The notes under the pieces are model-generated. The model saw nothing but the letters and a program-made list of their open reading frames with translations. It ran no database searches and had not been told where the DNA came from. A stretch of 61,499 bases of DNA from Brevibacillus sp. (GTDB taxonomy: Bacteria; Bacillota; Bacilli; Brevibacillales; Brevibacillaceae): the NCBI GenBank assembly GCA_017656235.1, contig JACDOF010000017.1, positions 1-61,499 on the forward strand. Reading direction: 5' to 3'. Each line of letters starts with the position of its first letter. Positions within the stretch are counted from its first letter, which is position 1. Positions 21,936 through 36,288 of the stretch are shown here, in pieces. The position numbers were made by a program, and so were the translations under genes.

Positions 21936-22000
21936 GTTTTACACCTCTTTCCGCCCTGATTCGTTTGCCGAAACAGAGTTATCTCAACACACATAAAGTT

Positions 22001-30409: not shown

Positions 30410-32062
<1,653 letters not shown>

Positions 32063-32104
32063 TCAAAAGCAGCCGATAAGCGGAATCCGGTGAGGATGGC
32101 TCCC

Positions 32105-32162
32105 AAAAAAAGAAAAAAACAAAAGCGTTGCCTATCCCGCCAAGCAGGTAGGGGCACTTTTG
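32105..32162 (-). terminator. Leader terminator (attenuator) upstream of pyrG
   Basis: The stem starts and ends CAAAAGTG.../...CGCTTTTG with a C-rich 5' arm (GCCCCTACC), and is followed on the minus strand by seven T, C, seven T (32119-32105). It lies 76 bases before the pyrG GTG and 43 bases after a predicted transcript start at GGGC. In B. subtilis, CTP shortage leads to reiterative G addition at such a start, and the poly-G pairs with the C/U-rich arm to prevent termination. Confidence 0.85.
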
Positions 32163-32201
32163 TTTTATAGCGTTCCCATATATGGTATCCCTTCATGTGA
32201 A

Positions 32202-32242
32202 GCCCAAGGAGTATTTTATACTGTTTTAAATATGGAAGTCAA
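32202..32242 (-). promoter_or_regulatory. pyrG promoter and GGGC initiation site
   Basis: Minus strand TTGACT (32242-32237), TATAAAAT (32220-32213), then seven bases to GGGC (32205-32202). Taking TAAAAT as -10 puts the start exactly at the first G; the spacer is then 18. The initial GGGC is the motif needed for reiterative transcription at pyrG in Gram-positive bacteria. The promoter begins right after the rpoE stop. Confidence 0.8.
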
Positions 32243-32246
32243 CCCG

Positions 32247-32789
32247 CTAAAAGTCGTCATTTTCCTCGTCTATCTCTTCTATCGCCTCGTCGTTTATCTC
32301 TTCGTCTTCGTCGAAGATGTCGTCCTCTTCTTCAAGGATCTCTTCATCATCAAGTGCTTCATCATCCAGATCGTCATCGTCGAATTCGTCGTCATCGTCC
32401 AGCAGCTCGATCTCATCTTCATCGTCGAACTCTTCCACCAGATCATCTTCGACTTCTTCATCGTAGTCGAAGTCGTCATCCAGCGGAACTTTTTTCTTCT
32501 TGCCGCTTTCATGGGTCTCTTCGACCGTCTCCATCGGATACCAGCGCTTCAAGCCCCAGATATTGTCCCCCAGGCAGACAAATCGGCCGTCGATGTTCAC
32601 TTCGGTATAAACCTGGGCAATCATCTTCATCATTTCTTCTTCTGACATGTTCCGCAGCGCGGCTATCTGGTTCATCAAATCGCGAAAGTTTTGCGGTTGA
32701 TTGGTCTCTTTCAAAATCTCAAATGCAATGTCGACCATTGCCATCTCGTTCAGTTTTTCCGGTGGAATATGTTGAAGTAGTTGACTCAA
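32247..32789 (-). CDS. rpoE: RNA polymerase delta subunit
   Basis: Delta promotes RNA polymerase recycling. About 180 residues: an N-terminal globular HARE-HTH domain (EKLNEMAMVDIAFEILKE ... YTEVNIDGRFVCLGDNIWGLKRWYP) followed by an almost purely acidic Asp/Glu tail from about residue 95. The start is TTG 32789 with AAAGGA nine bases upstream; the frame is open to 32810 but the site would then be inside the gene. Between icmF and pyrG; in B. subtilis the neighbour is acdA/fadF, so the acyl-CoA cluster next door is consistent. Confidence 0.93.
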   Translation of the reverse strand: MSQLLQHIPPEKLNEMAMVDIAFEILKETNQPQNFRDLMNQIAALRNMSEEEMMKMIAQVYTEVNIDGRFVCLGDNIWGLKRWYPMETVEETHESGKKKKVPLDDDFDYDEEVEDDLVEEFDDEDEIELLDDDDEFDDDDLDDEALDDEEILEEEDDIFDEDEEINDEAIEEIDEENDDF

Positions 32790-32840
32790 CCCGGGCACGT
32801 CCTTTCCCAACGATAACTTGGCTAGTTTACAGTATTCCTT

Positions 32841-32924: not shown

Positions 32925-35900
32925 CTACATGTTGCGGCGATACTGTCCGCCCACTTCGTACAGCGCTCTGCTGATCTGGCCGAGCGAGGCCACTTTTACC
33001 GTCTCCATCAGCTCGGCAAAGATGTTGCCGCCGGAGACGGCCACCTCCTGCAGCCGCTTAAGGGCCCGCGGTGCCTCCTCACGATGCCGCTCCTGAAAGG
33101 CGCGCAGGTTTTGGATTTGCTGTTCTTTCTCCTCTTCGGTGGCACGGGCCAGTTCGATGTCGTAATCTTCCTCCGACGCGTTGGGGTTGAGAAACGTGTT
33201 GACCCCGATGATCGGCAAGTCGCCGGAGTGTTTTTTCAATTCGTAATACATGGATTCGTCCTGAATCTTGCCGCGCTGATACTGGGTCTCCATTGCTCCC
33301 AACACGCCGCCGCGGGCGTTGAGCCGTTCAAACTCCATGAGAACCGCTTCCTCCACCAGATCGGTCAGTTCTTCGATGATAAACGAACCTTGCAGCGGAT
33401 TTTCGTTTTTGGCCAAGCCAAACTCCTTGTTGATGATCATCTGAATGGCCATTGCCCGCCGCACCGAGTTTTCCGTTGGAGTCGTGATGGCTTCGTCATA
33501 CGCATTGGTATGCAGCGAGTTGCAGTTGTCGTAGATGGCGATCAGCGCCTGCAGAGTCGTGCGGATGTCGTTAAAGTCCATCTCCTGCGCGTGCAGGGAG
33601 CGCCCCGATGTCTGGATGTGATACTTCAGCTTCTGGCTGCGCTCGTTGGCACCATAACGGTACTTCATTGCCGTCGCCCAGATGCGCCGCGCTACCCTGC
33701 CAATCACCGTGTATTCTGGATCGAGACCGTTGGAGAAGAAAAAGGACAGATTGGGCGCAAAATCATCCACGTGCATCCCGCGGCTCAGGTAATACTCCAC
33801 GTACGTGAAGCCATTGGCCAGCGTAAACGCCAGTTGGGTAATCGGGTTGGCCCCCGCTTCGGCGATATGGTAGCCGGAAATGGAGACCGAATAGTAGTTT
33901 CGTACATTGTGATCGATGAAGTACTGCTGGATGTCGCCCATCATCCGCAGGGCAAACTCGGTTGAAAAGATGCAGGTGTTTTGCCCTTGGTCTTCTTTTA
34001 AAATGTCGGCCTGCACCGTTCCGCGGACGGTGGATAACGTGAACGCCTTGATCTGCTGGTACTCCTCCGCGGTGGGCTGCCGCCCTTCCCGCTCGACAAA
34101 TTTCTCCACCTGCTGGTCGATCGCTGTGTTCATAAACATCGCCAAAATCATCGGAGCCGGTCCGTTGATCGTCATCGAGACCGACGTGCTGGGGGCGCAC
34201 AGGTCAAAACCGGCGTACAGCTTCTTCATGTCGTCCAGCGTACAGACGCTGACGCCGCTATTCCCGATCTTGCCGTAGATGTCCGGTCGGTAGTCGGGAT
34301 CTTCCCCGTAGAGAGTAACACTGTCAAAAGCTGTACTAAGCCGCTTCGCTTCATCATTTTTCGACAGAAAGTGAAAACGGCGGTTGGTCCGCTCCGGCGT
34401 TCCTTCTCCGGCAAACTGGCGGCGCGGTTCTTCTCCTTCGCGCTTGAAAGGGAAGACGCCCGCCGTAAACGGGAATTGACCAGGCACATTTTCTTTCAGC
34501 GACCACTTCAGAATCTCGCCCCAATCGGCGAAATCGGGCAGACAAACCTTGGGAATCCGCGTTCCGGAGAGCGATTCGGAATACAGGTTGGTCACAATCT
34601 CTTTGTCGCGGATTTTAGTGACAAATTGATCTTGTCTGTATGCCTCCTTCAGCCTGGGCCAATTGTCAAGGATCTTCCGGCATTCCGGATGGAGCTGCGC
34701 TTCAAAATGAGCCACTTGCCGTTCCAGTACAGCGACCACCTCTTCTGCCGCCGGTTCGCCGGAAGCGAGCACCGCTTCCTTGGCGCCTTGCAGTTGGAAC
34801 AGCTTGCGGGCGATTGCCGCCTGTTCCGCGGTAAACGTCCGATACCAGCGGACAGTGTTGGCGATCTCCTGCAAGTAGTTGATTCTTTCCGCCGGGATCA
34901 GCGACGGTTTGTGGATGGAGATCGGGGTTGGATCCAGATGCTCGACAGGCCAGTCGACACCCGTTTTCTGAACGAGCGCTCGCATGACAGCCGCAAAAAG
35001 GACATTGGTGCCGGGATCGTTAAACTGGCTGGCGATGGTCCCATAAACCGGGATTTGTTCGTCCGGCAGATCAAAGGCGTTATGGTTGCGGCGATACTGC
35101 TTGCGCACTTCGCGCAGCGCGTCTTCCGAGCCTTTACGGTCAAACTTGTTGATCGCCACAATGTCGGCGAAGTCGAGCATGTCGATCTTCTCCAACTGGG
35201 TCGGTGCGCCATACTCGCTGGTCATCACGTACATCGCCACGTCGCAAACCTCCGCAACCTGGGCATCCCCCTGGCCGATGCCGCTCGTTTCCACGATGAC
35301 CAGGTCAAACCCGGCTGCTTTCACCACTTTGAGGGCATCATGGATGGCAGCAGACAGCTCCGAGCCAGATTTGCGCGTGGCCAGACTGCGCATGTATACG
35401 CGCGGCGTTTGGTTGGAATTCATCCGGATGCGGTCGCCCAACAGTGCTCCGCCCGTTTTTTGCTTGGAAGGATCAATGGAGAGAATGGCAACGGTTTTTT
35501 CGGAATAGGTGTTGAGAAAACGGCGAACCAGTTCGTCGGTCAACGAGCTCTTTCCTGCTCCGCCTGTACCGGTAATCCCCAAAACCGGAATCACCCGCTC
35601 CGGCTTCGGCAGTTTTTCCGAAACAGGAGCAAACAGATCCGGCTGCTGTACGGCGTACTCGGCCAGCGAGATCAGCCTGGCCACGGCCTTGTGATTCTGC
35701 CGGATCAGTTCATCCAGCTCGTTTTCCAACTGCTTGACGGTTGGAAAATCGGTTTCCCGCAGCATCAGATTAATCATGCCCTGCAGGCCAAGATTGCGTC
35801 CGTCATCAGGCGAGAAAATCTTGCTGACGCCGTAGGCTTCCAGTTCCCGGATCTCCCGCGGCACGATCACACCTCCGCCGCCGCCAAACACCCGGATATG

Positions 35901-36176
35901 ACCTGCTCCGCGCTCCCGCAGCAGGTCGATCATGTACTTGAAGTATTCCATGTGACCGCCTTGGTAGGAGCTGACAGCGATGCCCTGGACATCCTCCTGA
36001 ATGGCGGCCGTAACCACTTCCTCCACGGAGCGGTTGTGACCAAGGTGGATCACTTCCGCGCCCGACGCCTGCAGGATACGGCGCATGATGTTAATGGAAG
36101 CGTCGTGTCCATCGTAGAGACTGGCCGCGGTTACAAAACGAATCTTGTTGACCGGTCGGTACGCTACCGTTTCCAA
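32925..36176 (-). CDS. icmF: Fused isobutyryl-CoA mutase IcmF
   Basis: Adenosylcobalamin enzyme interconverting isobutyryl-CoA and n-butyryl-CoA. About 1083 residues in the IcmF order: B12-binding domain (residues 10-140; base-off motif DGHDASINI with His24), central MeaB-like G-domain (P-loop GTGGAGKSS near 203, NKFDRKG), then the mutase TIM barrel (about 530-1083; [37 protein letters not shown]). The start is TTG 36176 with GAGGAGG eight bases upstream; 27 codons above it are not family-like. It is the last gene of the cluster and ends in a terminator. Related fused mutases using pivalyl- or isovaleryl-CoA cannot be excluded without active-site alignment. Confidence 0.94.
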
Positions 36177-36288
36177 ACTTGCTCCCTCCTCAAACAGGCG
36201 GCCCTTTCGCTGGTACCGCCTGTGTTTTCTCACACCATCAGCAAAATCTTGCAGCATGGATCTGATTGTTCCGGCTCTCCTCTTCCGC

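Follow-up and report, generated by a model that had tools for sequence, protein, structure and literature searches.

In Bacillus subtilis, CTP limitation reportedly makes RNA polymerase stall before the C at position 4 of the pyrG transcript, whereupon slippage adds G residues and the resulting poly-G end acts as an antiterminator. In that organism the transcript is said to start with GGGC downstream of the -10 element, and the terminator that precedes pyrG to have a 5' arm rich in C and U. The slippage mechanism is restated in part in a later article (PMC4448216). According to RNA-seq studies, G residues are added at the start of the pyrG transcript in Streptococcus agalactiae and S. pyogenes, and for S. 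agalactiae a terminator ahead of the gene is also reported (PMC4448216, PMC6431027). Counting against the attenuator reading proposed below, work on pneumococcus treats pyrG as a control for which no response to uridine is expected (PMC6212727). A survey from 2024 includes a structured element named the 'pyrG motif', which may be the same kind of leader; its main text names neither Brevibacillus nor Paenibacillus (PMC11109978).

We analyzed a window of 61,499 nt from Brevibacillus sp., in which pyrG (30410-32029) and all other features given below with window coordinates lie on the minus strand. The pyrG gene has a GTG start and encodes CTP synthase (NF003792, 893.7 bits; TIGR00337, 877.4 bits; both above cut-off), and its product is closest among named relatives to that of Brevibacillus migulae (87%), on which basis the family compared below is taken to be Brevibacillaceae. 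The upstream neighbour is rpoE (32247-32810), encoding the RNA polymerase delta subunit (TIGR04567, 114.7 bits), and rpoE is adjoined in turn by an ORF of 1110 aa (32925-36257), which we take to resemble the fused isobutyryl-CoA mutase IcmF. We propose that the pyrG leader is very probably a CTP-sensing transcription attenuator that starts at GGGC, undergoes G slippage and is antiterminated by poly-G; the start site, the slippage and the CTP dependence would follow the scheme reported for B. subtilis. The original prediction had read the leader in the same way, and the features shared with the B. subtilis attenuator support that interpretation, since the GGGC start, the C/U-rich terminator arm and the position before pyrG are all there and conserved.

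The putative pyrG promoter is of the sigma-A type (32213-32242), with TTGACT (32242-32237) and TAAAAT (32218-32213) separated by an 18-nt spacer. As predicted, GGGC (32205-32202), the likely transcript start and G reiteration site, follows the -10 element by 7 nt. Directly after GGG, the sequence CUUC-ACAU-GAAG (32191-32202) can form a small 5' hairpin, and a 24-nt linker leads to a long intrinsic terminator hairpin (32116-32166). In the fold of this leader, the lower stem pairs 32166-32155 with 32127-32116 (AAAACAAAAGUG/CGCUUUUGUUUU) and is followed by an internal loop (CC versus CAA), an upper stem pairing 32152-32144 with 32140-32131 (CCUACCUGC/GCGGG-A-UAGG, with a bulged A at 32135) and a UUG apical loop. 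The 5' side of the terminator contains the C-rich arm GCCCCTACC (32147-32155), the proposed poly-G partner; two of its C's (32153-32154) are unpaired in the internal loop and could serve as a poly-G toehold. The arm is interrupted by an A, which counts against the proposal. The hairpin is followed by the T tract TTTTGTTTTTTTCTTTTTTT (32105-32124), whose last two runs of seven account for the fourteen T residues noted earlier. A distance of 43 bases from the start had also been given, which is about right for the hairpin, whose first paired base in the fold comes after 39 nt, while the C-rich arm itself begins 50 nt past the first G. No Rfam family reaches its gathering score within the leader; both sub-threshold hits lie on the other strand, and Rfam was set aside as a source of identity. 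Elsewhere in the window, Rfam matches an L31-Firmicutes ribosomal protein leader (RF03156, 41.9 bits) at 21945-21978.

The start region is strongly conserved in the Brevibacillaceae. With one mismatch allowed, each of the 39 family genomes contains a single copy of the 17-mer TTGGGCTTCACATGAAG from the predicted 5' end; the copy is identical in 38 of them and is followed by pyrG in all 39. In 16 of these genomes, the pyrG start lies 163-363 nt past GGGC. Together with B. migulae, the 39 genomes yield 30 distinct leader sequences. GGGC is invariant in the 24 family leaders that were aligned, in which the promoter spacer is 17 or 18 nt and TAAAAT precedes GGGC by 7 nt. The loop C's are present in all 30 distinct leaders.

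This conservation bears on the reading that the hairpin is only the rpoE terminator, pyrG being transcribed from a promoter elsewhere and free of CTP control. The rpoE gene does end at 32247, just ahead of the promoter, and a simple scan of the region separating it from pyrG lists no further terminator; the attenuator hairpin (32116-32166) thus probably ends rpoE transcripts too. The same scan misses the pyrG hairpin itself, probably because of its internal loop. However, the sole promoter-like site that a simple scan of both strands finds in 32030-32260 is the pyrG promoter, which precedes the hairpin, and thus none was found downstream of it. The start region is also conserved beyond what a mere terminator needs, and the loop C's are invariant although mostly unpaired in the terminator. 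We therefore regard this reading as very unlikely. Any rpoE transcripts that stop at the pyrG attenuator would have 5' ends without a G tract.

The combination of a promoter and GGGC is not in itself beyond chance, because the reversed pattern is as frequent: there are 4 sites in this genome versus 5 for the reversed control, and about 120 versus about 133 over the 39 genomes (summed from the table). A search for promoter plus GGGC was thus rejected as proof on its own. Among the 4 sites of this genome, inspection by eye of 170 nt finds a downstream terminator at pyrG only, and the same design was not seen by eye at other family genes in 30 loci drawn from the roughly 120 sites.

A second conserved GGGC-start promoter of the family lies outside the window (L144, 1501-1600; G000:C24:3513-3552 and downstream), before an atpI-like ORF with a weak TIGR02230 hit below cut-off. 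The site TAATATGNATGAGGGC is found in 35 of the 39 genomes. In 20 of 22 distinct sequences (25 loci), its 5' GAGGGC, a motif that the search pattern itself imposes, is matched by a downstream GCCCUC; the latter overlaps a UCUCC that could pair with the purine-rich Shine-Dalgarno region. No terminator is found at this conserved site in the copies examined, and the element may control translation of the atp operon as a switch.

We also compared 110 pyrG loci, comprising a set of 30 that includes the locus of the window and 80 from named organisms. GGGC with a plausible promoter was found within 520 nt ahead of pyrG in 91 of them, and three (L026, L084, and L100) were dropped by eye for a weak -35 element. 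The GGGC start and the hairpin before pyrG are thus kept in 88 of the 110 loci, which are not independent observations because many leaders come from close relatives. The distance from the -10 element to GGGC is 7 nt in 78 of the 88 loci by a scripted count. The named loci without a GGGC start are mostly from what we take, from the organism names, to be Clostridia, Negativicutes and Alicyclobacillaceae, plus a Lysinibacillus. Three Alicyclobacillaceae pyrG loci (L084, L092, and L097), viewed by eye, carry a different, GTTCTGG...CCAGAAC-like hairpin upstream of position 1501 without the standard GGGC promoter layout.

The RNAalifold consensus of the 24-leader alignment contains the terminator with its internal loop as well as the 5' hairpin, which pairs columns 4-7 with columns 12-15. 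Among the 21 distinct rows, 98.9% of the cells in the terminator helix are paired, versus 40-66% when the partners are slid by 1 to 3 columns, and both sides have changed in 7 cells versus a mean of 1.8 in shuffled alignments, with all 7 cells falling within two upper-stem pairs. Two of the five covariation measures, namely the pairs with change on both sides and the further pair types, are not above the shuffles. Variation is almost absent from the lower stem and the 5' hairpin, which thus add nothing to the covariation evidence.

Folding with 0-8 extra G residues had been suggested together with the original prediction, and its outcome depends on how much RNA is exposed. With the whole hairpin exposed, the terminator of this leader wins at every extra-G count up to 10; full-length folding with 0-10 extra G's thus gave no switch and was set aside in favor of limited exposed lengths, at which a switch appears. 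With 82 nt exposed, the probability that the C run pairs in the terminator falls from 0.86 without extra G to 0.05 with four, and extra A's cause no change, while its pairing with the 5' G's rises from 0.01 to 0.40 with two extra G's and 0.94 with four. The terminator is half-formed at 74 nt without extra G, at 85 nt with four and at 87 nt with eight, so that eight G's delay it by 13 nt and eight A's by 0. The switch in this leader is confined to exposed lengths of about 74-87 nt in equilibrium folding, so the mechanism would have to be kinetic; given the footprint of the polymerase, such lengths would place it within the T tract. These limits count against the proposal, as does the partial pairing of the unslipped GGGC with the arm (0.39-0.67) before the 3' arm is complete.

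The effect of G is widespread among the leaders. We tested eight extra bases on 84 of the 88 leaders, excluding two without a C run (L068 and L096) and two in which the terminator never reached half (L012 and L072). The terminator is delayed by G in 80 of the 84, by A in 11 and by U in 9, and delays of at least 5 nt are seen in 61, 2 and 2 leaders, respectively. Some family leaders show a weak effect: L020, L023 and L121 are delayed by 1 nt in the measure applied to the 30 family leaders, although L020 and L023 are delayed by 9 nt in the 84-leader measure. In 83 of the 88 loci, a 10-mer of G is bound more strongly by the 5' arm than by the 3' arm; this count retains four loci in which the hairpin finder was judged wrong (L068, L072, L080, and L096; two for and two against the 83). 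In L020-L022, poly-G affinity is slightly higher for the 3' arm. The C-rich pyrG arm is able to pair with poly-G, and its affinity ranks 11th when terminator-like hairpins are collected from 451 kb of the genome (256 in total, pooled irrespective of lying inside or outside genes); arms with four or more C's in a row occur in 8 of the 256. As a control, we joined other strong hairpins to the pyrG 5' end. Of the 256 hairpins, 114 are at -15 kcal/mol or better, and 103 remain after removal of pyrG and of those never half-formed; 15 of these 103 are delayed by at least the 13 nt of pyrG, with a median of 1 nt. The modeled poly-G effect is consistent with slippage attenuation and would not identify it on its own.

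The CUUC-ACAU-GAAG sequence of the 5' hairpin, loop included, is almost invariant in the family, lying within the 17-mer, which is conservation beyond the need of a plain hairpin. Altering its 3' arm in silico changes the delay only from 13 to 12 nt, and shuffles support the hairpin only weakly (p below 0.05 in 3 of 24 family leaders and 10 of 64 others); it was rejected as a part of the switch. RNA stability or early elongation are guesses at the cause of its conservation. By eye, small hairpins of other sequence follow GGG in many Bacillaceae and in the enterococci examined, and several lineages have none.

These properties are the ones that would favor an attenuator run by something other than G slippage, for example by a protein or ligand recognizing the conserved GGGCUUCACAUGAAG end. 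The loop and stem of the 5' hairpin, identical in 38 of 39 genomes, are conserved beyond what slippage needs, the altered 3' arm barely affects the poly-G switch, and the survey cites the 'pyrG motif' as an element for which predicting the mechanism is not trivial (PMC11109978). On the other hand, no Rfam family reaches gathering level in the leader, and in other lineages the 5' hairpin differs in sequence or strength or is missing, while GGGC and the C-rich arm stay. We consider such control highly improbable here, and the preferred reading remains attenuation by G slippage.

The feature that sets the family apart within this kind of attenuator is the geometry of its terminator. The arm here reads AAAAGUGCCCCUACC, unlike the GCUCCC type of B. 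subtilis. To compare arm types, we used 84 leaders (24 family and 60 outside; the 88 minus L068, L072, L080, and L096), of which 38 have a GCUCCC-like arm and 46 a AAAGUGCCCC-like arm. The latter arm is found in all 24 family leaders and in 22 outside ones, most of them from Paenibacillus, so the arm type is not peculiar to the family. The open loop, in contrast, is: every one of the 24 family leaders leaves one or more C's of the run unpaired, versus 9 of 60 outside leaders, and 22 of 24 versus 0 of 60 leave two or more unpaired. Among the 30 distinct family leaders, the two C's adjoining the lower stem are both free in 26, and at least one is free in all 30, while the strand facing them across the internal loop is variable in both length and sequence. 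The arm is fully paired in the leader of B. safensis (L044), the closest stand-in for B. subtilis, whereas the C run here lies partly in the internal loop. G additions at the start are reported from RNA-seq for the S. agalactiae and S. pyogenes leaders (PMC4448216, PMC6431027); the one streptococcal leader in our set, from another species (L108), has a short hairpin with all the C's of the arm paired, unlike the open C's of the family. Among the literature matches listed, no title or abstract opening describes open loop C's.

Replacing the loop CC with AA in silico reduces the median delay of the family leaders from 15.5 to 3 nt, with the native delay being longer in 28 of 30 leaders and equal in 2, and closing the internal loop of this leader reduces its delay from 13 to 3 nt. 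In the folding model, the loop C's carry most of the poly-G effect. Poly-G pairing would be weakened by deleting any two C's of the run, and the calculation thus speaks for the importance of the C's and not for selection on their openness. The simplest reading of the model is that the open C's of the Brevibacillaceae are probably a landing site, or toehold, for poly-G. A constitutive leader, with a fixed read-through fraction and a C run kept for terminator strength, would fit the terminator being the stable end state of this leader whatever its 5' end, but has a negligible probability, given that the invariant loop C's are mostly unpaired in the terminator and that their change to A destabilizes none of the 30 terminators (median -2.0 kcal/mol).

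For attenuation by G slippage, we propose the following course of events. RNA polymerase would initiate at GGGC. When CTP is ample, C would be added at position 4, the 5' end would stay GGGC, and the hairpin (32166-32116) would stop most transcription. When CTP is scarce, the polymerase would stall before C4, and the short GGG transcript would slip on the template CCC, adding extra G's. After escape, the poly-G end would pair with the C-rich arm GCCCCUACC while the 3' arm is still to be transcribed; terminator formation would then come too late, and pyrG would be read. In the family leaders, the C's of the run freed by the internal loop would provide the place where poly-G lands. We tentatively suggest, as a possibility that we hold with less than even confidence, that the Brevibacillaceae pyrG attenuator works as a toehold strand-exchange switch, in which about 2-4 extra G's seize the arm and hold it longer than they would a paired arm of the B. 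subtilis type, giving a sharper or more sensitive response to CTP.

At the level of sequence, the leader displays every feature tested of the pyrG reiterative-transcription attenuator; it is a known kind of attenuator with a family-specific terminator geometry. A textbook case of regulation without a regulator, in which CTP is sensed by the polymerase itself, is extended here to an entire family of bacilli, and the 30 distinct natural leaders can be used to ask how the geometry of the arm sets the response. If the open C's do act as a toehold, the leader would be a natural strand-displacement switch and would hold a simple lesson for nucleotide-responsive expression in harmless Brevibacillus production strains.
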